Of a stretch of DNA of 55,410 nt, positions 4,871 through 33,735 are shown piece after piece. Under the pieces are notes generated by a model. The model was given only the letters and a program-made list of their open reading frames with translations. It did not search any database and was not told the origin of the DNA. Every line of letters starts with the position of its first letter. The stretch's first letter is position 1. The stretch is from contig NFUN01000057.1 in NCBI GenBank assembly GCA_002197525.1, positions 1 through 55,410 on the forward strand, written 5' to 3'. The position numbers were made by a program, and so were the translations under genes. This stretch comes from Acidobacteria subdivision 13 bacterium RH2 MAG17b. GTDB lineage: Bacteria; Acidobacteriota; Terriglobia; UBA7540.

Positions 4871-5497
4871 TCACCAAATCAGCGCCACGGCCGTCCCACT
4901 GCCAGATGAGCTTAAATAGAGGTTCGTCGCATCAAATAGCGTCGCCTGCCAGACGATCAGCGTGGTTGAAGTCAGCAATAATGAGACGCCAACCGGCTTG
5001 CGTCCAAGAAAATGCTGCACAGTAAAGTTGCCAGCCGCCGCTGGCGCGAGCGCGATCTGGCCCATGATCTTCGTCGCCTGCGTTACGGCCGTAACTGCCG
5101 TGGCGCTCGTCACTACCTGGCCGATCAGAGCATCGCCAGTGCTTGCGGCAACGGCGCTCGCTTGCCAATAAAAACCGCTCGATGAATTGTAGAACAGATA
5201 GCTTGTGGCGCTCGCCGGGGCCGCCGAAATTGCGGGCGCCGAAGCGGGGGCGTACCGCTGGCCCTGGGCGTACAGCACGCCGGTGGCGAGCCCAGGCGTG
5301 AGCGTCGATGAAGTCGAAAGCGCGAAGCCGCTCACTAGCCCATTGATGCCGAGATCGTTGAACATCAGGTCGCTGATGAATGCGACGTTCGAGTCCAGCA
5401 GCAGCGCGTTTGAGTCCTGGTCGGCTTCATAGCCTGTGAGGCCGTGCTGCGACTGAATCAGGCCTTTGCGCGGCAAAACAGTTCGAGTTACAGCCAT
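4871..5497 (-). CDS. Tail-fibre or tail-tip accessory protein, 208 aa
   Basis: Last gene of the phage transcript. The N-terminal part is charged and well structured (about 1-45, including YEADQDSNALLLDSN). The rest is rich in Ala, Ser, Thr and Val with alternating beta-type patterns, as in short virion fibre or receptor-binding proteins. Two motifs (GVLYAQGQRY, YLFYNSSSGFYWQ) resemble the repeated strands of phage tail-fibre shafts. There is no signal peptide or membrane helix. The start follows TGAGGAAATG. It lies 12 bases after the 160-aa gene and at the end of the tail module, so a role in host contact is likely. No enzyme motif is visible, and the family was not identified by name. Confidence 0.6.
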   Translation of the reverse strand: MAVTRTVLPRKGLIQSQHGLTGYEADQDSNALLLDSNVAFISDLMFNDLGINGLVSGFALSTSSTLTPGLATGVLYAQGQRYAPASAPAISAAPASATSYLFYNSSSGFYWQASAVAASTGDALIGQVVTSATAVTAVTQATKIMGQIALAPAAAGNFTVQHFLGRKPVGVSLLLTSTTLIVWQATLFDATNLYLSSSGSGTAVALIW

Positions 5498-5509
5498 GGG
5501 TTCATTTCC

Positions 5510-5992
5510 TCAATTATTCTGGCTCAGCGAGCTCCGCTGGCAGATCGCGTAAACCTTCACCGTACCCTGATTTTGCGCGCCGTTGCCGCCCCAATAGACT
5601 ACGCAGGTCAGCACGCCGGTTGCGTCGTTGATGTCCAGCTCGTAAGGCGAACAGATGAGAGCGCCTGTTCCCAAATCAGAGGGCGCGAGCGTCGGAAACG
5701 CCGCCTGCCCCACGATGAATCCCGCAGCGGGCTGGCGGCTGGAAACGAAAATCGGAACAAACATGCACTCAGAGCGCGAGTAGACGTAGCCATCCACCGG
5801 GCTCACTGGCGTCGGCACCGTGTTCGCGCTCGCATAAAACCCCATATAGATGATCTCGCAGCGCACCGCCGCGAACTTGGCGTTGTGCGACATTTTCTGC
5901 AAGCTATCGTCCGTCAGCGGCTGGTTGCCCGCGATCGCGGAATCCGCCAAGTCAAAGAAGCCCGGAATCGCGCTGAAAGTCAGTTGGCTCAT
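5510..5992 (-). CDS. Tail-associated protein, 160 aa
   Basis: A small protein between the giant tail-tip gene (7 bases upstream) and the last fibre-like gene. Residues about 1-45 are polar and helical, including LADSAIAGNQPLTDDSLQKMSHNAKF. The remainder is beta-rich with conserved-looking aromatic residues (EIIYMGFYAS, GYVYSRSECMFVPIFVSS), suggesting a virion beta-sandwich. There is no signal peptide, membrane helix or catalytic motif. The ATG follows TAGGTGAATT, a modest ribosome-binding site, so coupling with the gene ahead is plausible. Position alone points to a tail-tip or fibre-attachment role; I could not name a family. Confidence 0.6.
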   Translation of the reverse strand: MSQLTFSAIPGFFDLADSAIAGNQPLTDDSLQKMSHNAKFAAVRCEIIYMGFYASANTVPTPVSPVDGYVYSRSECMFVPIFVSSRQPAAGFIVGQAAFPTLAPSDLGTGALICSPYELDINDATGVLTCVVYWGGNGAQNQGTVKVYAICQRSSLSQNN

Positions 5993-5999
5993 AATTCAC

Positions 6000-8900
6000 C
6001 TAGAAGATCGTGTTTCCTGCCGTTCCATCGGCGTAAGTCCCGCCGCTGGCAGCGCTGGAAATGAACATATACTGCGCCTTTTGCGCAGCGCTCGCGCCCG
6101 TCCAGCCTGGCACGCCGGAAGCGGCAGGCGCGATGTAATAGGGCGTCGTCAAGTTGATGAATCGCGTATCGAGCAGATCAAACTCGACGCTGCCCTGCGC
6201 GTAATTCGGCGTCTTCCCGAGCACTTCGCAGACCACGCTTGTCAGTCCCAGCTTGCCGGTTTGGAAATCCGCCACCAGCGGATGCGTAAGCCACACAAAG
6301 TCGCCCAGCTCGACGCCGACAGTGGAAAGAAACGCTTTCACTTTGTAAACCGGAGGCGCAAAGGCATGGCGCCGGAAGATGCGGTCGGCGATCATCTGCG
6401 CCCGCCTGGTGCCGCCGTAAGGCAGCACCAGGCCGGTCGCCTCAATTTGCTGCTGGAAAATCTGGTTGTAGCGGATCAGCGATTCCTGCTGCTCAAACGT
6501 GACCTGATAATCATAGGCGCGCGCGGCCGTGGTGACGCCGGAGTTTTCCACATTCAGCTTCACCGTCACCACATTGACGATCCGCTGCCGGTTCGTCGCC
6601 GGAATGCCTACGATATTCTTCTGGTTCAGCGCCATCACCGGCGTCTGAGCCTCCGGAGACTTCATCGATTTCAGCGCCAGCCGGCCATCCGCGCGCACGA
6701 TCAGGTAAAGCCCCAGCACCTTCAAAATCTGGCTTTCGATGAATTGCTTGCCGTCGATTGGGCGCGTGATCTGGAACTCGAACCAATCGCCCGAAAATTC
6801 CGAATCGCGCAGCGCGAGCATTCCCGGCACGTCAATGTAAGCGTTCGGATTGATCAGCGTCGAATCGTCGCCGGGCGTGAAGATCACCCAGCCGGGCGCG
6901 GGGCCGAGCGGATCGTAATTCTGCTGGCTGGTGTAAGCCGAAACCGCTCGCTCGAGCACGTAATCCGAGCCGCGCAGCGACGGATCCTGCCCCACACCCA
7001 TCTCGTTCTGCAGCGTTGCCAGCAGCAAATCGATGGGATTGCCTTGCAGATATCGAGGATTCTTGTCGCTAGCCGGAAAGGCGTTCGCGCCTACGCTCGG
7101 ACCGATGGGCTGCGCGGCCCTGGCAGATTGCCCTGGCGTCCATTCGAGCGGGCCGCCGCGAATCCACACTTGCTGTCCCAGCAGAAACCGCTGCACGTCG
7201 TGAAGCGCAAACGTCACTTGGCCGTCTGCCGTCCAGCCGGTCTGGCTTACTTGCGCGGTGTGCAGCGTCACAAAATCGCCCAGGCTTTGACCGGGGAAGC
7301 CCATCTTGAGCTTCGCAACCTTGCCGATCAGCGCGTCCTGCGCGGTGAGACCCTTCAGCGTGCCGCTCGGGTCGATGCACTTGATCGTCGTAGCCCCCAA
7401 AGACGAAGCCCCGTCAAGTTCGTTCACCGTCTGGCTCATGCCTTGCGGAATCGAAAGATAGGGGAGCACCGTGGCGCTGGTCGAAATGGTCAGCAATAGG
7501 CCGGGATTCGTAGAAGTCAGCCACATCCACGCGCTGGGCGCAAACATCGGCCAGGCTTCGAACTCGTAGGGCAACCCGCGCGAGGCAAGCGAATAGCCGA
7601 GCAGCGAGCCATCCGCCGTCGCGCCTCGGATCGTACGTTGGCTGCTCACCAGAGTGGCGAGGAATGCATCCAGCCCGCTTTGTCCGCCAAAGAACGCCTG
7701 GATGTTCGCGTCGGTGTACATCAGCAGCAGCGCCAGCAGCATTCCCCAGCTTCCCTCCTGCCACACGGAATCGGGGACGCCCGAATAGCCGCCCGTGGAG
7801 TTCTGATAGGGCATAAAGCCATTAAATGGCGTGAGCTGTTGGTAGGCCTCGTTGTAGGAATTGGCGGCTGAAGACTTTACGACGGTCTGATTCTGAAGAT
7901 AAAAGTTGTCGTAAACGAATTCCAGCGCCTGTTCGGCCTGTGTGTTTGCCCCCACCGCGTAGGCCAGAATCGCCGCCCACGTTCCGCTCGCGTCCAGCGC
8001 CTCGCTCGTGTCAAGGCCAGCGCTCGAAGCGCCCTGCGCGAAATGACCTGGCGACGTGCCCGGAGCAATATAAAGATTCGCAAGCACTTGGCTGGTGACT
8101 GTTTCAGCCGCCGTCTGAATCTGCGCCGCCGTGGCTTGCAATGAAGTGGATTGCGCCTTCGTGATGTTGCCCGTCTTGAGCAGTTGAATCGAGGCCGTCT
8201 GCAGCGCGCCCGCGCAGCGCATGAAGGCGAAATAAATATCTACTTGATGTTCGGTCGAAACGCTGGTTTGTAGCCCAGGAACCCACTGATAGCCAGGGTC
8301 TTCGTATTTTCCCACCCCGAGATAGAAAAGGCCGTTCGTCAGGTCGCTCGCCGCCGATTGCAGCGTGAGGAGGTAGTTAATCATCCGCTGCAAATAGAGC
8401 GCCGGGGTGACATCGAGCGACAAGACCATGTAGACCGCATAGGCGTAGCAGACCCAGGCCATCGCGCCCGCGCGGATGTAGGCCTGGTCAATCTGGCCGT
8501 TGTAAACGTCATAGCTGAAAGCAAGCGAATTCGCGGGCTGCAAGCCGCCCACGCTGAGATTGTCGAAGTCGAGATCGCCCACGGCCGTGAGCGTGATCTT
8601 GAAGCTGCTAATCTGCGTGAGCGTGTCGCCCGCGAGCGAAGAGACAAGGCTGGCCACGTTCACCAGATTCGTGCGGTAAAACCCGCCGCCCGGCCCGATG
8701 GCAATCGTGACGATCTTCGTGCTCGAATTGTAAGCCGCAGGCGCGGTCGTCCCGCTCGTGATCTGGATGTCGGTCACTTTGCCGGAAGCCGTCACGACGC
8801 CGATATCGAAGATGAACGTCACCAGCGCCGCTTCCTTGTGCTGAAATTCAAGCTGGCCATCGGTGGAATCGGGTAAACCGGCTCCGGTAAAGGTGAAAGT

Positions 8901-9164
8901 GTCATTCGCGGCGGCCGCGTGGAAATCCACCACCAAGCCGGTTCCATAAGGCGGTTGCGTGGGATCGTTCACGTCCGCGATCGTGTCTGAGCTGTTCGAC
9001 TTCGACCAGCGGGAAGCGGAATTGTTGTCCTCACCGTTTTCCAGGATCGCGCTCGCCAGGTAACCCGGATTGTCGAGGAAATCATTGATCTGCTTGATGA
9101 TTTTCGAGGCGGCAATGAAGTTGTGCGGACGCCGAAAACGCGATGATCGCCAGCGCGCAATCAT
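6000..9164 (-). CDS. Giant tail-tip protein, downstream part after a frameshift (glycosidase-like barrel plus tail hub)
   Basis: This frame continues the protein begun at 10302. Its own first 13 residues are a shadow of the upstream frame, and meaningful sequence starts at HNFIAASKIIKQI near 9125. About residues 14-60 and 225-560 look like an (alpha/alpha)6 six-hairpin glycosidase domain (AMAWVCYAYAVYMVL, VSTEHQVDIYFAFMR, SVWQEGSWGMLLALLLMY), interrupted by a beta-sandwich insert at about 75-215 that could bind carbohydrate. Residues about 600-1054 resemble phage tail-hub proteins (GNPIDLLLATLQNEMGVG, QFIESQILKVLGLYLIVRADG, RADGRLALKS). The likely role is capsule or cell-wall polysaccharide attack during host contact. 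The full protein would be about 1,430 aa. It has no plausible ribosome-binding site of its own at 9164. Confidence 0.75.
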   Translation of the reverse strand: MIARWRSSRFRRPHNFIAASKIIKQINDFLDNPGYLASAILENGEDNNSASRWSKSNSSDTIADVNDPTQPPYGTGLVVDFHAAAANDTFTFTGAGLPDSTDGQLEFQHKEAALVTFIFDIGVVTASGKVTDIQITSGTTAPAAYNSSTKIVTIAIGPGGGFYRTNLVNVASLVSSLAGDTLTQISSFKITLTAVGDLDFDNLSVGGLQPANSLAFSYDVYNGQIDQAYIRAGAMAWVCYAYAVYMVLSLDVTPALYLQRMINYLLTLQSAASDLTNGLFYLGVGKYEDPGYQWVPGLQTSVSTEHQVDIYFAFMRCAGALQTASIQLLKTGNITKAQSTSLQATAAQIQTAAETVTSQVLANLYIAPGTSPGHFAQGASSAGLDTSEALDASGTWAAILAYAVGANTQAEQALEFVYDNFYLQNQTVVKSSAANSYNEAYQQLTPFNGFMPYQNSTGGYSGVPDSVWQEGSWGMLLALLLMYTDANIQAFFGGQSGLDAFLATLVSSQRTIRGATADGSLLGYSLASRGLPYEFEAWPMFAPSAWMWLTSTNPGLLLTISTSATVLPYLSIPQGMSQTVNELDGASSLGATTIKCIDPSGTLKGLTAQDALIGKVAKLKMGFPGQSLGDFVTLHTAQVSQTGWTADGQVTFALHDVQRFLLGQQVWIRGGPLEWTPGQSARAAQPIGPSVGANAFPASDKNPRYLQGNPIDLLLATLQNEMGVGQDPSLRGSDYVLERAVSAYTSQQNYDPLGPAPGWVIFTPGDDSTLINPNAYIDVPGMLALRDSEFSGDWFEFQITRPIDGKQFIESQILKVLGLYLIVRADGRLALKSMKSPEAQTPVMALNQKNIVGIPATNRQRIVNVVTVKLNVENSGVTTAARAYDYQVTFEQQESLIRYNQIFQQQIEATGLVLPYGGTRRAQMIADRIFRRHAFAPPVYKVKAFLSTVGVELGDFVWLTHPLVADFQTGKLGLTSVVCEVLGKTPNYAQGSVEFDLLDTRFINLTTPYYIAPAASGVPGWTGASAAQKAQYMFISSAASGGTYADGTAGNTIF

Positions 9165-10302
9165 AGATGAAGCTGCGGTTTTGCAGCGCTCCGGTATTCG
9201 ATTGCGTGGGGTCAGGCACGTAAAGCGGGTCGGACGTGGGCACAGTGAAGGACCGCACGAGGTCCTGATAGGCCGCCTGCGTTTGTAGCGACGTGTAGAC
9301 GAGCGTTGCGCCCTTGACCGGATCGTCGTAAAGAACGTGCACCGTCAGCTTGCCCGCAGCAGGGACCGCCTGCGAGCCGCAGCGCGCGTGGTAAGCATCC
9401 TGCACGATGATCGGAATGTTATCTTCCTGCAAGTATTCGATGTCGGTCTTCACGTAGATCCGCGCGAAGTAGCCGGAGAGCTTCTGGCCGATGCCCACGT
9501 TCGAGTGCGTGATCCAGCCTGCCGGAAGCGTGGGCGTATGCGATCCTGCCCCAGGCAGCGGTGCGGTGCTCGGATAAAGCGCCGCCACCACGACGCCCGC
9601 ATTCGTCACCTGCACCGCCCACCAGCCGTTCAAGCCTTGCTGGATGAGCAGCGACTGAAACTGTGATGGGCGCGGCGTGATTCCCTTGCACAGGCCGGTT
9701 GCTGGAGTTCCTACGCCAATCGCGCTCGACTGGTAGTAATACTGGTCGGTCAGCGTAAAAAGATCGACGCGATAGTCTTCAATCGTCGAAAGGCCAGGGG
9801 TGGCAAAAAGGTTGAAGATGGTCCCGTAGATCGTCATGCCCTGCAGCACGGGGTAAGTGTTGCCGTCGCAGAGCTTGATGCCGCTCGGCGAGGCGTTGTA
9901 ATTCGAGTTGTACTGCGCCGCGATCTGGCCGCTCGTCAGCGGAATGACGGGCGCAAACAGGTTGCCAGTGGGCAGCGTGACGGGCGAAAAGTCGATGGGA
10001 AAACCGTCCGGGCCAAGTGATTCGTCAAACAGCCAGCCCGCAGGCGGCAGCATGGCGATGTTTTCCACCGTCACCGCAGGAAGGCTGGAAAAATCGGCTT
10101 GCGAGAGAATCCCGCATTCGGCCAGCGCGGGCGAGGTGGGCTGCTGCGCCGCGCCGGGCGTCTGGGTGACCGGCAGCGACGTGAATAGCGCGTTCGCCTG
10201 CCAGTTGCCCACATCGACGTTCTGGCGCGAATAGAGCCACGCCAGCGTCTGCGCCATGTCGCCCAGGAAATCGCCGGGATAGTATTTCGCTATGTTCGGC
10301 AT
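9082..10302 (-). CDS. Giant tail-tip protein, upstream part before the frameshift
   Basis: The N-terminal part of the same tail-tip protein, 406 aa in this frame. It opens MPNIAKYYPGDFLGDMAQTL and has beta-rich segments up to about 330. The last authentic stretch is RSFIYDCALAIIAFSAS (about 376-392), the first helix of a six-hairpin barrel. The final 14 residues before the stop are out of frame. Resuming the +1 frame at about 9124-9133 gives a smooth helix-to-helix continuation into the downstream frame, so a one-base indel, assembly error or +1 frameshift separates the two. It follows a 59-aa tail gene in the same transcript. The N-terminal region carries no catalytic motif I can name. Confidence 0.7.
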   Translation of the reverse strand: MPNIAKYYPGDFLGDMAQTLAWLYSRQNVDVGNWQANALFTSLPVTQTPGAAQQPTSPALAECGILSQADFSSLPAVTVENIAMLPPAGWLFDESLGPDGFPIDFSPVTLPTGNLFAPVIPLTSGQIAAQYNSNYNASPSGIKLCDGNTYPVLQGMTIYGTIFNLFATPGLSTIEDYRVDLFTLTDQYYYQSSAIGVGTPATGLCKGITPRPSQFQSLLIQQGLNGWWAVQVTNAGVVVAALYPSTAPLPGAGSHTPTLPAGWITHSNVGIGQKLSGYFARIYVKTDIEYLQEDNIPIIVQDAYHARCGSQAVPAAGKLTVHVLYDDPVKGATLVYTSLQTQAAYQDLVRSFTVPTSDPLYVPDPTQSNTGALQNRSFIYDCALAIIAFSASAQLHCRLENHQADQ

Positions 10303-10560: not shown

Positions 10561-10617
10561 AGTTATTTCTTCATTGATTCAATGGCTCAATGAACCAATG
10601 ATTCAATGGCTCAATCA
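10561..10617. repeat. Array of 8-bp TCAATGNN-type repeats
   Basis: At least five consecutive 8-base units (TCAATGGC, TCAATGAA, CCAATGAT, TCAATGGC, TCAATCAG) fill the spacer between the distal-tail-like gene and the 59-aa gene. They reach up to the stop codon of the upstream gene. Confidence 0.75.
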
Positions 10618-10998
10618 GCTCACCACTTGCCGGAACTTCATCTTGAAAGAGTAAAGCCCTGCCGCTTTGTAGGCGGCGCTCCATGTCGTGTCTTCCAGCC
10701 AGTAATTCGTGAAGCCGCTCTGCGAGCTGTCCGGATAGTAGGCAAACTGGCCGCCCGTGAGCGCGGTCTGCATGAAGGCGTTCCAGGCGATCACGTCCGC
10801 GCCCAGCAGCACGAATTGCATGTCAAATTCCAGGAAGTTGTCGATGCGTTGGAGAATTGATTCGCGCACGCCGGAGCTTGCCACGTTGTCGTGCCGCGCA
10901 GCGACGGAGTTGTACGCCGCCACGTTGCGCGGTGGATAAGTGAAGGCCAGCGTGACAGGCCCTGTACCGGGATCGTAGACAATCTGTGGATTCGCCAT
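10615..10998 (-). CDS. Distal-tail-like protein
   Basis: A 127-aa protein placed between the tape measure and the tail-tip genes, where siphoviruses encode the distal tail (Dit) protein joining tube and tip. Visible features are a beta-rich start (PQIVYDPGTGPVTLAFTYPP), the segment ESILQRIDNFLEFDMQFVLL, and a closing beta strand (GLYSFKMKFRQVVS) typical of tail-tube-fold proteins. It is shorter than most Dit proteins and so may be a minimal version or a tail completion protein. No signal peptide is present. It is flanked on both sides by TCAATG-repeat spacers, which are otherwise rare in the locus. The assignment rests on position and fold style. Confidence 0.6.
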   Translation of the reverse strand: MANPQIVYDPGTGPVTLAFTYPPRNVAAYNSVAARHDNVASSGVRESILQRIDNFLEFDMQFVLLGADVIAWNAFMQTALTGGQFAYYPDSSQSGFTNYWLEDTTWSAAYKAAGLYSFKMKFRQVVS

Positions 10999-11001
10999 AA
11001 G

Positions 11002-11062
11002 CCGATTGATTCATTTCTTCATTGATTCAATGACTCAATGAACCAATGATGCAATGGTTTCA
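11002..11062. repeat. Array of 8-bp TCAATGNN-type repeats
   Basis: A third array of the same units fills the gap between the tape-measure-like gene and the distal-tail-like gene. It shares long stretches with the array at 10561-10617, including a common block reading TTCTTCATTGATTCAATG, so one may have been copied from the other. Confidence 0.75.
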
Positions 11063-11815
11063 TCCTGCCGCATACGTTGGCCGGATCGCGCTGCTTGCCG
11101 TGAGCTGTACGCCGCGCTGCTGCACGGCCGTGTTCAGCGTGTCGGCAAGCCACTGGCCGGCCTGCTCGTCTCCCATGATTGAAACGGTCAATTGCCCCGA
11201 AGGCGGATGCGCCGCAGAGGCCGCGCCGGCTGCAAGCCCCGAAACTGGAACGCCCACGCCTCCACCTGGCCTGGAACCGAGGCTATGCGCATAGTGTTCC
11301 GAAAGCGAACGCGAGTGGCCGCTTCCTGCGTCTGCGGACGCGGCAATCTGCGCCCCCGCAATCGTGCCCCAGAGAGCGGCGGAAGTGAAATCTTGCGCGG
11401 CCGCCCAGAAATCCAGTTCTCCAAGTGCCCCGAAGCCCGCAGCCGTCGCAGCTATCGCTTTATAAACGGCTGTCTGTTTAAGTGCGCCGAGACTGGAGGC
11501 GCTCTTAGTCTGCTCCGCAAGGCGATGTGTCGCCACCGACTGAATCTCAACCAGATTCTGATGGGCGAGAAGCGAGATCACCTGCGTCGTCGCGCGCGTA
11601 GCCACTGTGCTCCAGTTTTGTGAGGAGCGGGACAACTCGCTATACGTCTGGACGCCCCGCTGCTCGAGCCGTTGAAGGTTCGATGCAAGCTCCTGCACCG
11701 CCTGCAAGTTAGCGGCGCTTGGCTCCGTGGAAGTTTCGGACGGACCGGTGGCGCCGCTCCCGCGATGCTGCATTTCAAAAATCGTTCTCAGCAAATTGGA
11801 CATGTTCCGCACCAT
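11060..11815 (-). CDS. Short tape-measure-like tail protein
   Basis: A 251-aa protein following the tail-chaperone pair, the fixed position of the tape measure protein that sets tail length. Residues about 30-115 are a helical, Gln/Ser/Thr-rich rod. Residues about 112-165 form a hydrophobic Ala-rich stretch (KAIAATAAGFGALGEL, FTSAALWGTIAGAQIAASA) like the C-terminal membrane-type region of tape measures. A Gly/Ser/Ala linker and a short beta-type end follow. Typical tape measures exceed 600 aa, so this one predicts a very short tail. The start may be ATG at 11815 or 11803. An alternative is that it is a C-terminal fragment, but no upstream half was found. Confidence 0.65.
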   Translation of the reverse strand: MVRNMSNLLRTIFEMQHRGSGATGPSETSTEPSAANLQAVQELASNLQRLEQRGVQTYSELSRSSQNWSTVATRATTQVISLLAHQNLVEIQSVATHRLAEQTKSASSLGALKQTAVYKAIAATAAGFGALGELDFWAAAQDFTSAALWGTIAGAQIAASADAGSGHSRSLSEHYAHSLGSRPGGGVGVPVSGLAAGAASAAHPPSGQLTVSIMGDEQAGQWLADTLNTAVQQRGVQLTASSAIRPTYAAG

Positions 11816-11842: not shown

Positions 11843-12052
11843 TCACCACCACTCCTCGTGAGCAGTGCTTTCCGCCCTCATCGTGCGTTCTCTCGATCGC
11901 CAGAAAGCAACAGCGGCGGCGATATCGATCTGTAATGCCACCACATCCGTGCTCGCCTGCCTTCCGTTTCTACCGAGACCCAGGAGGGTGCTCGGACGGC
12001 AACTCCAGGTGTGAGCAACTTGACTCAGTAGCAGCAGATGATCGCTAGCCAC
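11843..12052 (-). CDS. Second tail-chaperone frame (gpT-like)
   Basis: A 69-aa frame that begins with GTG at 12052 inside the last codons of the tail chaperone gene (8-base overlap). The sequence (HTWSCRPSTLLGLG, then DVVALQIDIAAAVAFWRSRERTM) fits the short partner frame common after siphoviral tail chaperones. In many phages it is reached by ribosomal frameshifting. Here it lies in +1 relative to the upstream frame, and a CCC-T sequence sits four codons before the upstream stop, a context known to permit +1 slippage. Independent initiation at the GTG is the alternative, although no clear ribosome-binding site precedes it. It is the last gene before the tape measure. Confidence 0.6.
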   Translation of the reverse strand: MASDHLLLLSQVAHTWSCRPSTLLGLGRNGRQASTDVVALQIDIAAAVAFWRSRERTMRAESTAHEEWW

Positions 12053-12473
12053 GAAAGGGCGCGAGGTCGGCCACGGAGGAAGAATTGCCAGCCTCCGTTA
12101 CGACCTCGCCCATTGCCCACCGTACAATGAAGTTCAGATCTGAGTCATCTAGGAGGTCCGGAGAAATCTCTTCTGGCCCGGGAGGCAAAGAAACTCGCGG
12201 TCGCACCATAACCTCTGAAAGGAGCGCCAATATCCAATCCGCCAGCTTTCCCACATCGTCCGGCGTTCGAGGTGCCTTTTGAGACGAACTCTCCATACTC
12301 GCCGCCAGGGTTTGAGGGAGACACTGATGAAAGACAAACCACAACGGCGACGGCCGCCGCATCAGCACGGCTTTGCCAAGCTTCGGTAGAGTCACACGCT
12401 CGACTCTCGCCTCAGAATTCCGTGAAGCCACAAAATCCTGAGGGCTCGCGAGATCAGTTTCAGATTGACTCAT
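12045..12473 (-). CDS. Tail assembly chaperone-like protein
   Basis: A 142-aa acidic, helical protein between the tail tube and the tape measure, the standard place of the chaperone that coats the tape measure during tail assembly. The central part carries helices (LADWILALLSEVMVRP), and the C-terminal part has the family-like phrase DDSDLNFIVRWAMGEV. There is no signal peptide or membrane segment. The start ATG (12471-12473) follows GGAGAAACAGAAG. The stop codon overlaps the GTG start of the 69-aa second frame, giving a gpG/gpT-like arrangement. Confidence 0.7.
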   Translation of the reverse strand: MSQSETDLASPQDFVASRNSEARVERVTLPKLGKAVLMRRPSPLWFVFHQCLPQTLAASMESSSQKAPRTPDDVGKLADWILALLSEVMVRPRVSLPPGPEEISPDLLDDSDLNFIVRWAMGEVVTEAGNSSSVADLAPFRG

Positions 12474-14050: not shown

Positions 14051-14161
14051 GGTTAATCGCAGCAGGTCCAGTTCAATCTGTAGCTGGCTGCCGCAGAGGC
14101 GTTGCTACAGTTGGGAATGCCGCTGGGGCAGTGAACCAGAAATCCTGCGGAGTTCGCAGCC

Positions 14162-14701: not shown

Positions 14702-14777
14702 TACGTTCTCCTCACTCGTAGATAGGCGCATAGCGCATCAGGCTTTCCCGTTATGCGCTACACGTCCTATCCGTTTG

Positions 14778-24569: not shown

Positions 24570-24649
24570 ATTCGTTCCCTTCACAAGTTTGTTGGCGAAC
24601 AGCCGCGAATGGGATGAAGACATTCCGCGCCTTCGTGCCCCGAGCCGGA

Positions 24650-26179
24650 TCATTCCGGGGGATTCCAACCCTTTCCGACAGCCTCAGTCTGGCCTTGAGT
24701 CACGGTTTCCCCGCGCACCACCACGACGCCTTCACTGCCTTCCTCAGGCAGCGCGAACCGCTCGCGAATGGCCTTGCGGATGTTCCTTTCGCTAACGACC
24801 AGACCTTGCTGCGCCAGCGCTACCAGGTCCGCGGTGATTTCGCCGATGCTTCGCGCCTGCACGTTGGCTGCAATAAGTCGCGGGCAAGGCGCATGGTCGC
24901 CAAAGTTCAGCGCCACTAGCCGGCGGATCGTAGAGTAAGTAAGGTCGAGGGCTATCTGGTTTGCCACGCTTTGCAGCCCGAGCATAAAGAAGTCCGCTGC
25001 CGTTGCGCCCAAGGCGCGTGAACCATGCGCCGCCTGGCCGAGATCCATGAACGTGTTCAGCGCCGCACGGGAAATCATTTCGTTGTGGTGCTGAATGGAC
25101 GGCATCACGTCACGGAGATTCCCCTCATAACCCGCAATTCGCAGCCCGGTGTGGGGATCACCGGGCGGTTCAACCAACCCTGCCGCTTCATGGGCCGCGA
25201 GCTGGGTGACGAAACTATAGGCCGCCGCCTTGTCTTCTGCAGCGAACCCCGGCGAGAGACGAAATACCGGAATGCCAAGCGCGTTCCGTTCATTGGCAAT
25301 GGCGTCAATGCGGTAAAGCTTGCTCTTCACGTACCAGTGCGGATACATTGCTCTCTGCAGCGCGATACCCCAAAAGTTGGCTCCCTCCTGCTGGTACGTG
25401 AATCGGGCGATTTTGTCAGCAGGCAGAAGCACGTTCAAGAACCGGTCTCCGCGGTACCCGTATTGCTCGAGAGCCAGAAGTGTTTCTCCGTCGGACTCCG
25501 TGTGCCACCGGTAAAACGTCACTGGCAATCTCGAAGGCAGGGATCGAAGCCGGATTTTGTCGCCGTCCACCATCCAGACGTCCTCGTGGATGGCGCACCC
25601 GAAATCGAGCATCAGCAGGGCGTTCGAGATCACGCTCTGCCAGGACTGGGAAGTCCAACCTCCACTCGAGTTCTTGAATTCCAGGCCTCCGAACAGATTG
25701 TCCTCGATGAACCGGGTGATTTCTTTCGCCCGCGCAAATCCAGGATTGCTCTCTTCAGCGCCGGGGACGATCTGCCACTTCGCCGATAAAATGGGCAACT
25801 TGCACGCAGCCAGCGTCGCCCGGACTTGCGCATCCGACCGCCGCATTTTTTCGTAAGTCGGAATTGCATTGCGCCCCATCAACTCGGGGTTGTATTCGCC
25901 GAGGTCTACCAGGAATCCGCTCGTGATCGGTGTGCCGGAGACGCCGAAGGTCTTGTCTAGCTCACCTTTTGCCGCGCCGACGCGAAGGGATCCGGGGTCT
26001 GGCGCAGGAGCGGGCTTGACGCTCGCCCAATTGCCTGTTTGCAGCGGTGGCGTCTGATGTCCAAATCCGGTCTCCACGTCGGCGAGCGCAACGGCGCGGT
26101 CAATGCGTTCTTGCAAAGACTGCGCCTCACGCATCAACGCCCGCATTTGATGACCGTTATGTTTGCTTGTACCCGCCAT
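24650..26179 (-). CDS. Portal protein (DUF935, Mu gp29-like)
   Basis: A 509-aa protein that forms the head vertex through which DNA is packaged. Family-like phrases are YEKMRRSDAQVRATLAACKLPI, AKWQIVPG, FGCAIHEDVWMVDGDKIRLR, GIALQRAMYPHWYVKSKLYR and FMLGLQSVANQIALDLTYST. Residues before 100 are a more variable start with a coiled, charged helix. No membrane helix. The ATG follows AGGGAAACAGAAGC. It follows the papain-like gene and precedes two giant exported proteins that occupy the place of the Mu F (gp30) gene, which was not found. The start of the next gene lies after its stop. Confidence 0.85.
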   Translation of the reverse strand: MAGTSKHNGHQMRALMREAQSLQERIDRAVALADVETGFGHQTPPLQTGNWASVKPAPAPDPGSLRVGAAKGELDKTFGVSGTPITSGFLVDLGEYNPELMGRNAIPTYEKMRRSDAQVRATLAACKLPILSAKWQIVPGAEESNPGFARAKEITRFIEDNLFGGLEFKNSSGGWTSQSWQSVISNALLMLDFGCAIHEDVWMVDGDKIRLRSLPSRLPVTFYRWHTESDGETLLALEQYGYRGDRFLNVLLPADKIARFTYQQEGANFWGIALQRAMYPHWYVKSKLYRIDAIANERNALGIPVFRLSPGFAAEDKAAAYSFVTQLAAHEAAGLVEPPGDPHTGLRIAGYEGNLRDVMPSIQHHNEMISRAALNTFMDLGQAAHGSRALGATAADFFMLGLQSVANQIALDLTYSTIRRLVALNFGDHAPCPRLIAANVQARSIGEITADLVALAQQGLVVSERNIRKAIRERFALPEEGSEGVVVVRGETVTQGQTEAVGKGWNPPE

Positions 26180-26238: not shown

Positions 26239-27057
26239 TTACTGACGGCTACCTTCTCCCCACGGTTTTCCCATATGCCCCATCCACAGGTCGGGTTGCG
26301 ATAACTCTGCCCGCTCGATGTACTCATACGGCATCCAGAACAGACCGTCTGATCCCCACCCCGCGCCCCAGGAATTCTGGCAACAGAAGCTCGATCGGTC
26401 ATCGTCGTAGCCTCGAATGACCACGGCGTGCCCCCCTAAAATTGGCTCGCCGGACCTTGGCATGCGCAGGGTGCCGTCGCCGCCGATGGCCTCAAAAGAT
26501 TCATAAACAATAAAGCCCAAAGCAATCGCGTATCCTGATGCCAAAACCGACTTAGCCGTGGCCGCGTCGGGTATCCGGTGATAAGCTCCGATTCTATAGA
26601 GCCGCGCGTCGTCCAGGCTCTTCGGGCTGTCATTGGCTCCTGTCGAAGCGAAGTCTGCCGGAACGTAGGGATCGTCCGATTCCGAACACACGCCCGTATG
26701 CGCTAGCACAGTGAAAATGTCCCGAATCGCAGCGCCACTGTCGGTCCCCGGATCGTTATTCCATGGCAATAACCGCTCCTGGTAATAGAGGAACAGGCGG
26801 CTCAGATCTTCGTCAGGGCTGGAATATTTGGAAAATCTCTGGGCTAGGAATCGCCGGTATAAGACCCCTGCATTCGCGGTGCACGATCCGAGTTCACCCT
26901 GGTCGTAAACCGGTAGGTGCAACCCAGCGAAGACATCCGCACTCGATGGCAGCGGGGCTCCGATTCCGAGGTGAGGCGCCGGAGCAAGTTTGAAGTCGCG
27001 TGCGTCTGGAGCATCGACCTTTCTTCCCAATCCCTTTCGAAACCTTGGTGTCGGCAT
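26239..27057 (-). CDS. Papain-family (C1A-type) cysteine protease
   Basis: A 272-aa papain-like peptidase. The catalytic triad is complete: DQGELGSC with Gln53 (oxyanion) and Cys59, GGHAVVIRGYDD with His210, and NSWGAGWG with Asn228. There is no signal peptide or classical inhibitor prodomain; the first 45 residues are a short N-terminal extension (RFRKGLGRKVDAPDARDF). It lies between the lipoprotein gene and the portal gene, in the same direction as the phage genes, with the ribosome-binding site AGAGG. C1-type peptidases of this form are found in bacteria and occasional phages; a role in maturation, lysis or host attack is possible. It is unlike the I-type head protease, so the particle locus would encode two proteases. 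Confidence 0.85.
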   Translation of the reverse strand: MPTPRFRKGLGRKVDAPDARDFKLAPAPHLGIGAPLPSSADVFAGLHLPVYDQGELGSCTANAGVLYRRFLAQRFSKYSSPDEDLSRLFLYYQERLLPWNNDPGTDSGAAIRDIFTVLAHTGVCSESDDPYVPADFASTGANDSPKSLDDARLYRIGAYHRIPDAATAKSVLASGYAIALGFIVYESFEAIGGDGTLRMPRSGEPILGGHAVVIRGYDDDRSSFCCQNSWGAGWGSDGLFWMPYEYIERAELSQPDLWMGHMGKPWGEGSRQ

Positions 27058-27109
27058 ATAAAACCTCTTGGATCTCAGATGGGGTGCGCGACCCCGCGTG
27101 TCTACAGTG

Positions 27110-27691
27110 TTATTTCAAAACTATCTTCGCGAACGCCTGATTGACCTCGGCGTTAGCCGTAGGCTGAGTCACGACGGCATTGAACTCCTGCTTAAGCTGG
27201 CTAGGACCCAAGGGGACCGCAATGGGTCCTTTCCGGGCCTGGAGTTTCCCCGACGAAATTACCGGTAGAAGCTGAGCGAGTGAGTCAACCTCAGTACCAA
27301 TCAGCGTCACAACGGCGCTAATCTTCTGGACGGTGGCCGGATCGCTGATGTGCAAGGCCGGCAGAAGGCCATTCAAATTGGAATGAACATCCCCTAGCGC
27401 AGTTTGAATCTTCTGTACCGTTGTCACATTCGGCGAGGCGTCATACTCGTTGATCAACTGTCCGACCAGATTCAAATCATTGGATACTTGATTGGCCACT
27501 TGAGTGATCGTGGTCAGGTCCGGGCTGGAAATTGTTTTGCCCTGGAGAAGGCTGACGGCGGTGACCAAACTGGTCACCATGGGCAGCACCACGGGCAGAA
27601 TTTGCTCGGCCACCTTAACCCATTGCGCTGCACCGCAGCCTGCAAGCGCTATAACCAGAATGGGAATTAGTAAAATCTTTGTTCTTCGCAT
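27110..27691 (-). CDS. Phage-locus lipoprotein, 193 aa
   Basis: The N-terminus MRRTKILLIPILVIALAGC is a lipoprotein signal with the lipobox LAGC, so the protein should be attached to a membrane after cleavage at Cys19. The rest is helical and hydrophobic at intervals (VVLPMVTSLVTAVSLLQG, NQVSNDLNLVGQLINEY, KISAVVTLIGTEVDSLAQLL). No catalytic motif is visible. The start follows GGAGAG. It lies after the small holin-like gene, a position used by outer-membrane spanin lipoproteins in many phages, but it is longer than typical ones and lacks their proline-rich part. An alternative is a host-surface protein that blocks superinfection. Confidence 0.65.
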   Translation of the reverse strand: MRRTKILLIPILVIALAGCGAAQWVKVAEQILPVVLPMVTSLVTAVSLLQGKTISSPDLTTITQVANQVSNDLNLVGQLINEYDASPNVTTVQKIQTALGDVHSNLNGLLPALHISDPATVQKISAVVTLIGTEVDSLAQLLPVISSGKLQARKGPIAVPLGPSQLKQEFNAVVTQPTANAEVNQAFAKIVLK

Positions 27692-28200: not shown

Positions 28201-29697
28201 TCACAATACCGTTTGCTGAAAGCCGGAGAGCGCAGGTTTTCCAACCAACCCTCCGACATCCGCCAAGTGATAAACCGGTTGCTGTGCAGCCGTTTCAGCC
28301 AGGCAAAACGCCCACCAGTGGTCTGCGTGACCGTACTTTGCGTCGTGCTCCGTATCGAAACGAAATTGGCCGATGGCGTTCTGGGTCTTTTTGATCGAAC
28401 TGAAGGAGGCGCGAACCATGTCGTCATCCGGAACTCTCACCTTCATTTCTTCCATGCGGCGCTTGCCATAAACGGCCAAACCTTCTTTGGTCTGCTGGGT
28501 AAATTGAACGCCCTCGACCTTTCCCGGGAATTCTTGTTCCAATTGCTCGGCAATCACAAGGCCCATGCCTGATTGGTCGATGTTCATCCGCCGGATCAAA
28601 GGCATCAGTGCGCGAGCGCGGCGAAGCTGATCAGGCGTCGGCAGGTCTTTCATTTCGACCACTCCCCGAGTCCACGTTACGTCACCAACAAGTTCGTTAA
28701 GCCAGATGACGCTGAGGTCACGGTTGCGCGCGATGTCCCATCCCGCATACAAGCTGCCATGTGCGAGGTGTCGTCCAGACGGCACACCTGACTGCACGGC
28801 TAGCGGCAGCTCGGTAGTCGCCTCCGAAGAGACACACGACTGAAATAGCTCTGGAGTAATCCACTGCGCCCCTTCCGAAACAAACTCGCAGCAGAATTCT
28901 TGCCTCCACGCTTCGTCATCTACTCCAGCGCGCAAAAGGTCAATGTCAACTTTCAGGCCGTCGCTAACGGCCTTGTAGATATCACACCAATGCCCGGACC
29001 ATACACCAGCTTTTCGAACGCCGCTTTGCTCGCCAGCACGGTTGAGCGTGGCGACGGCGGAAGCCGGATCCGATAGTCCGGCTGTTTTCGCAAGCTCGTA
29101 AAACTTCCCTTGTTGGCCGTTTGGCGTGGAGATCACTTCGAGCCGGTAGCCGCGCGTAATGATGGGATAGAGCGCGGTGTAGATCTTTTCAGCATCAACA
29201 TGGAAGGCAAACTCGTCCAGCGAGACGTTGCCCGAATAGCCTCGTGCTGTGTCCGGATTTGCCGGCAATCCGTAAATGACCGAACCGTTCGGGAAGCGCA
29301 CCTCCAACTGTTTGGTCATAGTACCTTCGAAAAAATTCGATTCCAGACAGTTGGCTACTATTCCACAAGACTGAATGTGTTCCTGAACCTTCTCCATAAG
29401 TAGTCGTGACTGCCGTTCACCTTTGGAAAGAAATATCCACGTGGTCCGCCGCTCCAGGCACCGCAAGACCGCACGTAAGGTCGCCGAAAAGGAGAAGCCC
29501 GTCTGCCGGCCTTTCACAACGATCTTCAGTGTGGAATCATCTTCCACCCATCTCCGCTGATATGGCAGGAGTTGTACTGCCGGCTTCACGGGCCCAGGCG
29601 CGGGCACGTCGATTTGCGAACGCTGACCCTGCACAGCGGAAAGCTGTTCTAGCCGGTTTTTGGACGGTGCGCGCCTCTTGCCCGATGACGGTTTCAT
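28201..29697 (-). CDS. Large terminase subunit (Mu gp28-like)
   Basis: A 498-aa ATP-driven DNA packaging motor. The nucleotide-binding loop is KGRQTGFS at about residues 62-69 (a deviant Walker A) and Walker B is VSLDEF (about 158-163). The nuclease domain begins near residue 320 with YAGWDIARNRDLSV, in which Asp321 is the expected metal ligand. A phrase GYSGNVSLDEFAFH matches Mu gp28-type enzymes. The start is taken as ATG 29695-29697 because AAGGGTG precedes it, with the stop codon of the small terminase just upstream (29699-29701). Upstream in-frame ATG codons lie inside the neighbouring gene. Loss of this gene would abolish DNA packaging. Confidence 0.9.
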   Translation of the reverse strand: MKPSSGKRRAPSKNRLEQLSAVQGQRSQIDVPAPGPVKPAVQLLPYQRRWVEDDSTLKIVVKGRQTGFSFSATLRAVLRCLERRTTWIFLSKGERQSRLLMEKVQEHIQSCGIVANCLESNFFEGTMTKQLEVRFPNGSVIYGLPANPDTARGYSGNVSLDEFAFHVDAEKIYTALYPIITRGYRLEVISTPNGQQGKFYELAKTAGLSDPASAVATLNRAGEQSGVRKAGVWSGHWCDIYKAVSDGLKVDIDLLRAGVDDEAWRQEFCCEFVSEGAQWITPELFQSCVSSEATTELPLAVQSGVPSGRHLAHGSLYAGWDIARNRDLSVIWLNELVGDVTWTRGVVEMKDLPTPDQLRRARALMPLIRRMNIDQSGMGLVIAEQLEQEFPGKVEGVQFTQQTKEGLAVYGKRRMEEMKVRVPDDDMVRASFSSIKKTQNAIGQFRFDTEHDAKYGHADHWWAFCLAETAAQQPVYHLADVGGLVGKPALSGFQQTVL

Positions 29698-29698
29698 C

Positions 29699-30406
29699 TC
29701 ACCCTTGTGCATTAGATTTGTTCTGAGCGGCTTCGCCCGGCCCGCTATTTGAGATGAGTCCGTAGATTTCCTGAATTCGCTGGATGGTTTCGGGGCCAAG
29801 TGCGTGATCGTGACTCTCACGATCCACAGCTTGCTTGAGTTGGAGCACCTTTGCTCGTAACAACTCGAGCTTTGCTATCTCGCTTCTCAAACGCGCATCG
29901 AGCACTTTCTTGTCCAGATCGAACTTCTTCACTCTCAAGCGGTAGGTATCTTTCTTGAGCCGCTGATTCTCCTGCTGATCTTTCACCCGGATGGCTCGCT
30001 GCAGCCCGGAAGCTTCGTCACGTTTTCTCAGGCCCATGAGTCCTGTAATTAACACCGCTTCGGCGAGTTCCGCCTGCCCCGAATCAGGATCCCTCAGCGC
30101 TTGCTTCAATGTTCGTGCCGTCTCGAGCTGCCGCCGGATACGATCTGTCTGTAAGTTGAGATCCGACCGGAAGTGTTTCTCAACTGCACGCACCGTGATC
30201 ATGTCTTCCCCAAGGTCGTCCACGGCTTCCACCACGTCTTCAAATGTGGAGCCACCCACCAACATGTCACGGACGGCATGCTGAGCCTCGGGGGATAATT
30301 CATCTACTTTTGTAACGATCTTCCTGGCTGATGATGGCTGTTGCCGCTCGGGAGACACGGCGTTCTTTGCTGGGATAGATCGTTTAGGAGGTTGTTGTTG
30401 TGCCAT
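29699..30406 (-). CDS. Small terminase subunit (DUF3486, Mu gp27-like)
   Basis: A 235-aa protein that recognises DNA for packaging. Residues about 26-60 (ARKIVTKVDELSPEAQHAVRDM, then TFEDVVEAVDDLG) match the helix-turn-helix of the DUF3486/Mu gp27 family. Residues about 85-190 are a long coiled-coil-like stretch rich in Lys, Glu and Leu. The N-terminal 20 residues are Pro/Gln/Ser-rich. The ATG overlaps the previous stop by one base (TAATG), which suggests coupling, and it stops two bases before the large terminase start. The combination with gp28- and gp29-like neighbours supports the call. Confidence 0.85.
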   Translation of the reverse strand: MAQQQPPKRSIPAKNAVSPERQQPSSARKIVTKVDELSPEAQHAVRDMLVGGSTFEDVVEAVDDLGEDMITVRAVEKHFRSDLNLQTDRIRRQLETARTLKQALRDPDSGQAELAEAVLITGLMGLRKRDEASGLQRAIRVKDQQENQRLKKDTYRLRVKKFDLDKKVLDARLRSEIAKLELLRAKVLQLKQAVDRESHDHALGPETIQRIQEIYGLISNSGPGEAAQNKSNAQG

Positions 30407-30720
30407 TACTTTCCAGGCTCCAAGTAGATGCCATCGTCTGCCGGGAGTCGCCCGTCGCGGTAGTCGATGCCTTTTGCTGTGATCTTCACGAGTGAAACAT
30501 TGCGATGAGTATGTGGACCGCGGACCCCTTCCACGCTCACTAGCCCCTTTTCGGAGAGATAGGCGACGTGAAAGTTAAGTTCCTCGAGCGGAATCGGATA
30601 ACCGAAAAAATCGAGTTCGCCCTGAAGAAGGGGCAAGGTTGCAGACTGCGGATAGATCAGACCAAGGTAATAGAGAATTTTCCCTCGGATGATCTCTTTG
30701 TGCCGAAGCGACGTGGTCAT
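30406..30720 (-). CDS. Winged-helix protein next to the terminase
   Basis: A 104-aa protein with a winged helix-turn-helix layout: HKEIIRGKILYYLGLIYP is the first helix pair, LEELNFHVAYLSEKGLVSVEG the recognition helix and wing. The C-terminal part reads KITAKGIDYRDGRLPADDG. The start ATG (30718-30720) follows GAGGAA. Such proteins precede the terminase in several transposable phages and may act as packaging or late-gene regulators. It overlaps the small terminase start by one base. No transcription-activator family name can be given. Confidence 0.7.
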   Translation of the reverse strand: MTTSLRHKEIIRGKILYYLGLIYPQSATLPLLQGELDFFGYPIPLEELNFHVAYLSEKGLVSVEGVRGPHTHRNVSLVKITAKGIDYRDGRLPADDGIYLEPGK

Positions 30721-31069: not shown

Positions 31070-31870
31070 CTAAGCATCGCCCGCCGGTTTCTTCGGAGTC
31101 GTGGCCTGACCAATTTGCTGGTAGAAATTCATCCTTTGCAGTGCCTTACTCACATACTCGGAGTCAAAGGTTCTCCCGTCCGGCCGTCCGGTATTCCAGC
31201 AACGGAACAGAGCTGACCAATCGCGGTTCAGTTTCAAGCCAAAGTGCTGCGCGAAATCACCCAATATCTGCACCGCTAAGCGATAGTGAACATCCGGATC
31301 GAGCAATTCGCGGATCTCGATCTTGCGGCCTACTACGTGGTACCCCATGATTTGAGTCAGGCCCCAGGAGGTAGCGAGAGCGCGCAAGTCTGCGTCTTCA
31401 TACTGCGTAATGACGCGCAGCGCTTCAGAATCGAGATACAAAGCTGTCAGCCATGTCTGGAGGTTTTCGTTTTTTGTGTCGAAGTTTTGCTCAAATGCAG
31501 ATACCAGGCCTTTCGGCCCAATGCTTCCAAACGCGGCAGATTCACCGCTGGCAACGGCTCTCAGGTGTTTGTATACTCCTGGCTCGAAGAATGACGCGTC
31601 CGGCCTGCCTCCTGATTCATTCGCCGTCAGCGCAGCCAAAAATGCTTCCGGCAGATTTGTTCCTGCGACAGCCGCGCGAATGGAATGGTTGAATCTTTCA
31701 TACACCTGTTGCATCAGCCTGAGTTCGATATCCCGTGCCGTTGTACCCGATCGCTCCAATGTCTGGCACCTCTCCGCCTTAATGCCGTCTTGCGTGCAAC
31801 CCAACCCGCCGGAAGCAGACTCGCCTGAATTGGGGCGGCCGCTCTGTGAATCATGGAGGTGATTACTCAC
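31070..31870 (-). CDS. Lysozyme-like muramidase or lytic transglycosylase
   Basis: A 266-aa protein with features of the lysozyme superfamily: FLAALTANESGGRPD holds the likely catalytic Glu85, and ATSWGLTQIMGYHVV (about 166-180) matches the S-x-G-L-x-Q motif of transglycosylase folds. A C-terminal stretch LFRCWNTGRPDGRTFDSEYV resembles the closing part of these enzymes. There is no signal peptide, so release by a holin or action within the particle is expected. The first 50 residues are polar and variable. The start is GTG at 31868-31870, 24 bases from a cluster of four 9-bp repeats. As the first gene of the phage transcript, it may be expressed earliest. It could be a virion-associated lysin or an endolysin. 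Confidence 0.7.
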   Translation of the reverse strand: MSNHLHDSQSGRPNSGESASGGLGCTQDGIKAERCQTLERSGTTARDIELRLMQQVYERFNHSIRAAVAGTNLPEAFLAALTANESGGRPDASFFEPGVYKHLRAVASGESAAFGSIGPKGLVSAFEQNFDTKNENLQTWLTALYLDSEALRVITQYEDADLRALATSWGLTQIMGYHVVGRKIEIRELLDPDVHYRLAVQILGDFAQHFGLKLNRDWSALFRCWNTGRPDGRTFDSEYVSKALQRMNFYQQIGQATTPKKPAGDA

Positions 31871-31929: not shown

Positions 31930-32194
31930 TTTTTTCAATTGGTGCTTGAGCCGGAGATATAGCGAACGTAAAGCGGGATTAATTCAGAGGCTAACCGTAC
32001 AAGGCACTTTGACAAAAGCAACCCATCCGAATTCAAAGCGGCGATTTGGCTGGACAACATAGAAATCTTGTTCCGAAAACGCGATTACCATGACGCAAGC
32101 GCCCAGGCTAGAAGTAAAACAACATCTCATTGCGTGTGAGCGAAGCGAGCGCAGGGCGCGAAATGATCTGAAGAAGCCGAATGGAAACCGGAAT
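31930..32194. other. Spacer between phage operon and metallophosphoesterase
   Basis: Together with the repeat array this forms a 324-base gap. It contains a T-run (about 31928-31935) beside the repeats and no supported gene. The short palindrome GCGAAGCGAGCGC-like sequence near 32140-32155 is common in GC-rich genomes. Part of the upstream promoter of the phage transcript should lie here. Confidence 0.4.
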
Positions 32195-33616
32195 CTACTT
32201 TACCGAATTGTAGCTGACGCACTTGGAACTGGAAAGGCTCCCGGACCAGCACTCAAACGTACGGCCGCCTCTCTCGTCGTCCTTAAAAAAGACTAGGTAG
32301 GTCATGCTGTGATAACCGGCGAACGTTTCGCGGCTCGGTTGAAGCCGGGTTAGTTCGTGTACAGGCCGCCATGTACCGGAGTTCAGATAAATCTGCGGTG
32401 ACGCATACTCTCCCGAATAGGACACATCGAGGGGTATCATCTCGTGGTGGTGCGTGTGACCGTATACAATGAACTTGCTAGTTTTATTTTTGAAGTGCTC
32501 TTCCTGAAGAGCATAATCCGAGTAAGACCTTTTTTGCCGGCCAACTATTTGGCCTGCCCAACAGATCAAGCGGCTGCTCTCTGGGCTCAGAAGCCTTTTT
32601 GAGAGTCGAAGCGCCCACTTCAATTTCTCGACCTCGACCGGGAAACGGGATTTTTTGAAATGCTCCCGAACGAACGGATTGTGCATGAACCGGTCAACCA
32701 AACCATTCCAGATTTCTTGCACCTCCCGGTGAAGCCGCAGGTCAGGACAAGTCCTACGAAGGAGTCCACCCACCCATACTGGAATCATGAGAAGCGGCCG
32801 GACGTTGTCAATTTCCCTCATCGCGAGCAGGCATTCCGCCGGGAGAGCGTCTCCAAGACTGGTTTTCACCTCTGCGGCGAAGCTTGTCACGAGGTCGATA
32901 ACAATCGCATCACCCAGTGAAGCTTGGTCGCGATGGCCTTCAAAGTTGAAGGGATCGTAAATGTCACCGTGCCGGGCGAAGACGCGATGATCCGCGAATA
33001 TTCGCCGGATTTGTTCCGCTCCAAGTTCGGCCGGATCGTGCGGAAACGGAGCATAGGGGTTATTTTCAAGCCCGAGCGCTTGCACCACCGCGTTGCGGAT
33101 ACTGTGGTACGCCGGATGTTGGAGATGAAAGGGCCAGTCGTGATTTCCAACCATATAGTGAATAGACACCCGCACCGGGAGACGGCGAGATCCATCCCGA
33201 TTGGCGTCAACCAGCAGCGGGCGGCTATCTCCGGCCGCTGCTGGAACGCTCGCGATAGCTGTGTCGCGCAACTCTCGCATCATGGTAAAGAAGACCGCGT
33301 TTTTTTCGAGAATGGCGCCGGTGATTGCGCGAATCTTGCCGGTGAACTCCGGACTTTCCGGATCATCCCAAGGTCTCAGGCGTGCAGGAACTCCGGGTCG
33401 ATCTTCCAGCCAGCGAGAAGATCGCAGGACGTCCAGAATATCTCCTAGCAAAACGATGTCTAATCGCTCAATCGGCCGGTATTTGCCATCCGCCCTCCAA
33501 GATGCGGAGTAGGCTAGACCACGCAGTCTTTCTCTAAAGACGCGAAGCGTACCCTGGTGAACAGTCTCTCCAGAAGTTCCGTCGGTAAGATGAATGTCGC
33601 TGACAATCACCAGCAT
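32195..33616 (-). CDS. Metallophosphoesterase
   Basis: A 473-aa calcineurin-type phosphoesterase with the complete set of metal motifs: SDIHL (Asp7, His9), LLGDILD (Asp59), VGNHD (Asn158, His159), HGDIYDP in the middle and GHTHHHE near residue 410. The substrate may be a nucleotide, phosphoprotein or nucleic acid. It is longer than simple UDP-sugar or cyclic-nucleotide enzymes, with a large helical insert between residues about 240 and 390. No signal peptide. The start ATG (33614-33616) follows GGAGGAG; the longer frame to 33697 is rejected. It has the same four-copy 9-bp repeat upstream as the phage operon, which suggests co-regulation, possibly as an accessory gene of the locus. Confidence 0.8.
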   Translation of the reverse strand: MLVIVSDIHLTDGTSGETVHQGTLRVFRERLRGLAYSASWRADGKYRPIERLDIVLLGDILDVLRSSRWLEDRPGVPARLRPWDDPESPEFTGKIRAITGAILEKNAVFFTMMRELRDTAIASVPAAAGDSRPLLVDANRDGSRRLPVRVSIHYMVGNHDWPFHLQHPAYHSIRNAVVQALGLENNPYAPFPHDPAELGAEQIRRIFADHRVFARHGDIYDPFNFEGHRDQASLGDAIVIDLVTSFAAEVKTSLGDALPAECLLAMREIDNVRPLLMIPVWVGGLLRRTCPDLRLHREVQEIWNGLVDRFMHNPFVREHFKKSRFPVEVEKLKWALRLSKRLLSPESSRLICWAGQIVGRQKRSYSDYALQEEHFKNKTSKFIVYGHTHHHEMIPLDVSYSGEYASPQIYLNSGTWRPVHELTRLQPSRETFAGYHSMTYLVFFKDDERGGRTFECWSGSLSSSKCVSYNSVK

Positions 33617-33699
33617 CGGTATACTCCTCCTACAAGGTTCGCGGGAAGTGGACAAATTGAATTCAACGAATCGTCCAGCGGAATTGTACGGCCCCACCC

Positions 33700-33735
33700 T
33701 GAGACAATGGAGAGAAATGAGACAAATAAGACAAT
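33700..33735. promoter_or_regulatory. Four 9-bp direct repeats upstream of the metallophosphoesterase gene
   Basis: Units of consensus TGAGACANN start at 33700, 33709, 33718 and 33727, with the second degenerate (GGAGAGAAA). The array lies 84 bases before the ATG at 33616. It matches the array at 31894-31929 in period, number, order and orientation, so a common regulator is likely. Confidence 0.7.

Follow-up and report, generated by a model that had tools for sequence, protein, structure and literature searches.

A cluster of phage packaging, head, tail and lysis genes set between bacterial genes raises the question of whether it is a prophage in decay or a particle that the host has kept for its own use. 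Such a cluster lies at 4871-31870 (minus strand) in the window analyzed here, a 55,410-nt stretch that corresponds to contig C123 in a draft genome of 2.8 Mb, where a first-pass annotation had proposed a domesticated gene transfer agent (GTA) candidate. The gene set, the missing mobility genes, inheritance at the same site, congruent trees, purifying selection and a short tape measure can all be read in the sequences. We think it probable that the locus descends from a Mu-like (B3-type) siphophage and survives as a domesticated remnant, a particle factory kept by the host and most likely acting as a GTA. On this evidence domestication is strongly supported, with same-site inheritance, purifying selection and the lack of adjoining mobility genes all in its favor, and gene transfer by the candidate GTA is likely.

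The cluster, all on the minus strand, encodes Mu/B3-type packaging and head proteins, a non-contractile tail and an endolysin in the order of transcription p24, p23, p22 (TerS), p21 (TerL), p20, p19, p18 (portal), p17, p16, p15, p14 and p13, then the p12-p9 connectors, p8, p7, p6, p5, p4+p3, p2 and p1. The terminase small subunit p22 (29699-30406) is Mu gp27-like, the large subunit p21 (28201-29820; Terminase_6N/6C) Mu gp28-like, and p18 (24650-26179; Portal_Mu, 139.9 bits) is the counterpart of Mu gp29. Head proteins comprise the maturation protease/scaffold p15 (17153-18523; Mu I; Mu-like_Pro, 113.5 bits), the scaffold/decoration-like p14 (16578-17135), with a weak match to phrog_673 that was clearer for the same-position gene of G026, and the major capsid protein p13 (15390-16328; phrog_1005, 246.5 bits; Phage_cap_E). 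TerL and capsid are each present in one copy in the window genome. The major tail (tube) protein p8 (12525-13460), which has an Ig-like part, matched phrog_2175 and occupies the position of B3ORF43. Assignments were made by position for the head-tail connection genes p9-p12 (13517-15319; collinear in relatives and with the B3 order), the tail assembly chaperone p7 (12045-12473; flanked, like its B3 counterpart, by tail tube and tape measure) and the distal tail protein p5 (10615-10998; 46-78% identity in relatives). The tail-end genes p1 and p2 (4871-5992; 42-84% identity) are the last conserved pair before the flank and mark the distal limit of the locus. Profile searches found no tail sheath, in keeping with the non-contractile tail proposed earlier.

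The closest match in organization is Pseudomonas phage B3, along with other Mu-like siphophages (Beetrevirus), which share the order endolysin, gp26, gp27, gp28, gp29, protease, scaffold and capsid and, past the capsid, gp36, Ig tail protein, chaperone and tape measure; TerL is 32% identical. Together with the profile matches (Portal_Mu, Mu-like_Pro and the gp27-like TerS), this order bears out the assignment of the locus to caudoviricete-derived head, tail and packaging genes of Mu/B3 type within a host genome. Unlike B3, the locus has no recognizable MuA/MuB, repressor or Mor, nor gp30/F, the Mu F-type head gene that the first-pass annotation had found missing from an order that otherwise matches. 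Its tape measure is 251 aa long against 1099 aa in B3.

The nearest TerLs outside the Acidobacteriota are those of Bacillota and Meiothermus (45-46%). The Aneurinibacillus TerL has MuA, a MuB-like ATPase and a gp27 TerS in its neighborhood, which makes a transposable phage of the Mu kind the probable ancestor. MuA and MuB are present in the outgroup prophage L142. Within the family, the genome G031 carries a GTA-like locus on contig C75 and, separately on C47, a related Mu-like prophage. The C47 prophage has homologues of p2, p3, p5, p6, p8, p9, p13, p15, p18, p21 and p23, but differs in that it also encodes a MuA-like protein, a repressor, a MuB-like ATPase and a phage lysozyme, and in that its tape measure is 710 aa long. 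Its MuA-like gene reached 17 bits for Mu-transpos_C, below the cut-off, and is 28% identical to the Aneurinibacillus MuA over ~200 residues (E 9e-16). MuA relatives are sporadic, detected in 7 of the 25 family genomes searched and in no case on a locus contig.

Host genes adjoin both ends of the cluster, as the first reading of the window had it. To the left (1089-4694, plus strand) are a CBS-PALP enzyme and RodZ, identified by Pfam, and an ORF at 3780-4694, with the same arrangement in G002 and G003. To the right (32195-34811, minus strand) are a calcineurin-type ORF and MutM (Pfam), both also found in G001 and the former in G003, with Rieske and AAA (ClpX-like) genes on the same side. The limits first given for the element, 4871-33735, hold at the left end; the right end moves inward to ~31870, the end of the lysozyme-like p24, and the calcineurin-type ORF (32195-33697), seen next to the locus in this genus alone, appears to belong to the flank. 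No integrase, MuA/MuB, repressor or replication gene was recognized within or beside the locus, where some ORFs are of unassigned function, and none of the transposases or integrases that could have marked a mobile element was recognized just outside its limits. All six integrase matches of the window's own genome are on other contigs, and a related MuA used as query gave no match in that genome. Scans for Rfam families and tRNAs returned nothing in the window.

Relatives found by their terminase are Acidobacteriota of the class Terriglobia, assembled from soil and peat; some carry the label gp13. TerL was detected in 34 of 61 genomes searched, nearly all within the same family. Of the 39 family genomes sampled, with the window's own among them, 32 had the capsid gene, compared to 1 of ~160 other Terriglobia (30% identity). 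One or both of these genes were found in all but 3 of the ~38 other family genomes; among the sampled family genomes, only G005 (95% complete), G028 (75%) and G035 (58%) had neither. The sample held one genome per species and consisted of draft MAGs with short contigs. This near-universal presence in one family and near-absence outside it is not the scattered occurrence expected of a mobile element.

Several sequences beyond this core set were also noted. IMG/VR contigs L021-L028 and L031, listed as viral, share a large part of this gene set, with p24, c27, c23 and p23 included in some of them, and may be misfiled chromosomal loci. The 6-kb contig VBOG01000063.1 (L123), labelled Nitrospirae, has a TerL that is 66% identical and falls inside the acidobacterial clade; the contig is probably mis-binned, or else reflects a transfer. 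In another Terriglobia family, a collinear block of ~12 gene families surrounds a distant TerL (36-49% identity) in G042:C182 (L257, L258) and G050:C77 (L259, L260), possibly a second, independent particle-only locus.

Among relatives the locus is collinear from p24 to p1, and it keeps its place in the chromosome. One site is shared by all four members of the genus (g1), with the left flank common to G000, G002 and G003 and the right flank to G000, G001 and G003. A second shared site, different from that of g1, was seen in at least five other genera. On its p1 side, within the fetched stretches, ornithine cyclodeaminase, creatininase, c43, SH3 and abhydrolase genes are found in g7, g11 and g14, and the series is partly present in g12 and g15. 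On its p24 side, c41 is found in g7, g8, g11, g13, g14 and g16; c41 was considered as a locus gene and rejected, being a host gene that occurs across the class. In G016:C291 (L255), both flanks and both locus ends are kept and the middle is deleted, which is decay in place.

To compare the histories of locus and host, a phage tree (TerL, portal, protease and capsid) was set against a host tree built from two genes, RpoB and MutM, for 27 genomes, with the window genome represented by MutM only. The trees were made from trimmed sequences by a quick search; they took the place of a Mantel test on simple distances between untrimmed ORFs, which had given a noisy signal. The trees share 11 of 24 splits, compared to a mean of 0.25 and a maximum of 3 in 2000 shuffles, and the patristic correlation is 0.39 (0.54 without g3 and g5; permutation p 0.0005). 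The common splits include g1+g6 and a group in which 11 genomes represent six genera (g1, g2, g6, g12, g15 and g16). Same-site flanks and shared splits thus agree with co-diversification with the hosts, with g3 and g5, which are misplaced, as exceptions. The g3 genomes G032, G036 and G184 have two to four capsid gene copies, and the g3 loci form a separate divergent clade. Given the misplacement of g3 and g5 and the extra g3 copies, exchange or replacement has probably taken place in the loci of these two genera.

These exceptions, the related prophages with MuA and MuB in the family and the similar contigs listed as viral in IMG/VR are what one would expect if the locus were a live temperate phage or helper-dependent element with preferred insertion sites and frequent re-acquisition, its g3 and g5 copies looking exchanged or duplicated. 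We regard this as very improbable, as mobility genes were not recognized, the phage tree recovers deep host splits and flanks are common across genera. Mu-like phages also transpose near-randomly, which counts against a live element at preferred sites. Inheritance at one site and in step with the host tree, as seen for most genera, goes against it as well.

The copy in the window is not intact in every gene. The tail-tip/hub gene (6000-10302) is split into p4 (9082-10302; 406 aa) and p3 (6000-9164; 1054 aa), which overlap in different frames; near 9123 the window has one base more than its nearest relative, G002. The frameshift reported earlier is therefore present in this assembly: in G002, G004, G009, G013, G017, G026 and G027 the tail tip is one ORF of 1325-1557 aa, and p4/p3 as an ordinary gene pair was rejected on that ground. 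The extra base may reflect recent decay, in which case the window copy could be impaired, or an assembly error. The tape measure p6 (11060-11815) is very short, at 251 aa compared to 248-311 aa across the family loci; no profile matched p6, and the call was made by position and the N-terminal ISADPSQA-type tape-measure motif with which its homologues begin. Tail length usually amounts to ~0.15 nm per tape-measure residue, which for 251 aa predicts a tail of ~40 nm.

Selection was estimated with the G013/G026 pair, in which dS is unsaturated. The conserved particle and lysis genes had dN/dS of 0.056-0.36, the purifying selection that had been suggested as a check for domestication: capsid 0.066, portal 0.096, tail tube 0.056, tail tip 0.11, TerL 0.19 and TerS 0.34. 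The dS of conserved locus genes (0.38-0.69) was close to that of flanking host genes (0.43-0.80). Between the window and G002, where dS is near saturation, pN/pS was 0.08-0.51. Purifying selection is seen in phages too, and it carries weight here because it is found jointly with same-site inheritance. These values bear most directly on the idea that the locus is an ancient defective Mu-like prophage in slow decay, its genes no more than a recombination source for incoming phages. The split tail gene, the internal deletion in G016, the missing F gene and the absence from G005 would all fit such decay. However, dN/dS lies far below 1 at a dS near that of the host flanks, long ORFs are intact across many genera, and neutral decay over such divergence would put stops everywhere. 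The selection data largely refute slow decay, and we consider it a quite unlikely account of the locus.

Selection for a particle does not by itself say what the particle does, and here the accessory ORFs are of interest. Between portal and protease are p17 (20865-24668), a 1267-aa repeat-rich exported fibre-like protein, and p16 (18542-20923), a 793-aa secreted protein, both without a family match; between TerL and portal are the lipoprotein p20 (27110-27691) and the papain-type cysteine protease p19 (26239-27057; Peptidase_C1). Both regions, p16/p17 (18542-24668) and p19/p20 (26239-27691), are missing in several relatives. p16 has homologues at the same position only in G003, G008 and G024, p17 is present or absent and varies in position, and p19 was seen only in g1 and g6 loci. 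The papain-type protease/lipoprotein pair as a whole sits between TerL and portal in genera g1 and g6 only. Fibre-like homologues of the long repeat-rich ORFs lie elsewhere in the G026 and G034 loci, as if part of a swappable module. The variable p16, p17, p19 and p20 could be effectors or receptor-binding parts of a domesticated particle that packages host DNA and does not deliver it. Such a particle might kill, like PBSX or a bacteriocin, or serve the host in some other way, and its trace in the sequence would be identical to that of a GTA. Against this, no toxin-immunity pair was recognized in support of killing, and an intact set of portal, terminase, connector and tail-tip genes under selection fits DNA delivery at least equally well. 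We judge a non-delivering particle rather unlikely, though the most serious of the alternatives.

At the start of the cluster, the lysozyme-like endolysin p24 (31070-31870) has an NES...SWGxTQIMGY motif that is invariant across 11 aligned loci, and its AlphaFold model gave a weak match to goose-type lysozyme (probability 0.87-0.94, E about 0.5-1). The small protein p23 (30406-30720; VpaChn25_0724-like, phrog_436) is 92-94% identical within the genus, with a weak NCBIfam match below the cut-off. This conservation had suggested a new host regulator, a reading that was rejected because p23 can be placed, if weakly, in a Mu-phage family and occupies the gp26 position. TerS matched Mu gp27 of a Bacillota Mu-like prophage over its whole length (hhalign E 2.9e-6) and is predicted, with high model confidence, to have N-terminal helix-turn-helix (HTH) helices at 39-81; a fold search with TerS gave no match. 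TerS is the fastest-evolving packaging gene, and the HTH has nonetheless been kept, so that some sequence preference in packaging may remain. A TerS without a specific DNA-binding domain, described for several GTAs (PMC11841831), is a frequent though not defining GTA trait that p22 does not share.

For the GTA that we favor, we infer that some host signal would induce expression of the cluster and that TerS/TerL would then fill heads with random chromosomal DNA by a headful mechanism, from weak or non-specific starts. Short non-contractile tails would be joined to the filled heads, the lysozyme-like endolysin would release the small particles, and these would carry host DNA to kin. Points against a GTA are the split tail tip in the window, the loss of the middle in G016, the absence from G005, the incongruence of g3 and g5, the TerS HTH and the differing g1 site. 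On balance, the evidence tilts toward a family-wide Acidobacteriota GTA that had its own, independent origin in a transposable phage of the Mu kind, is older than the genera of the family and has a shortened tail.

Formal proposals exist for three GTA families, two from Alphaproteobacteria and one from Brachyspira (PMC9662315), and a 2026 paper counts very few GTA-like elements known outside Alphaproteobacteria (PMC12946183). Acidobacterial prophages have been reported without a GTA reading (PMC5900883). Our literature search, which covered a minority of subscription papers and preprints, returned no GTA from Acidobacteriota and no GTA of Mu-like phage descent. If the locus is a GTA, it would represent a further independent origin, in an abundant and mostly uncultured soil group, and a route of gene exchange in peat and soil Acidobacteria; it would also permit direct comparison with autonomous Mu-like relatives, for which the G031 C47 prophage is a useful contrast to the domesticated loci. 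The data also suggest that some "viral" IMG/VR contigs are such bacterial loci.

Of the characterized systems, PBSX of Bacillus subtilis is similarly a phage-derived element retained by a host lineage and packages dispersed host fragments of 13.4 kb (PMC12946183). It derives from a different type of phage, and the present candidate particle might act by killing or by transfer. The GTA of Rhodobacter capsulatus (RcGTA; Rhodogtaviriformidae) differs from the candidate locus in that the latter has Mu/B3-type ancestry, an Acidobacteriota host and a TerS that keeps its HTH. The likeness is nevertheless extensive: both are particle-only clusters inherited vertically with their hosts under purifying selection, and both have a non-contractile tail, one giant tail-tip protein and a very short tape measure, which in RcGTA has ~216 residues for a 49-nm tail (PMC7296036).
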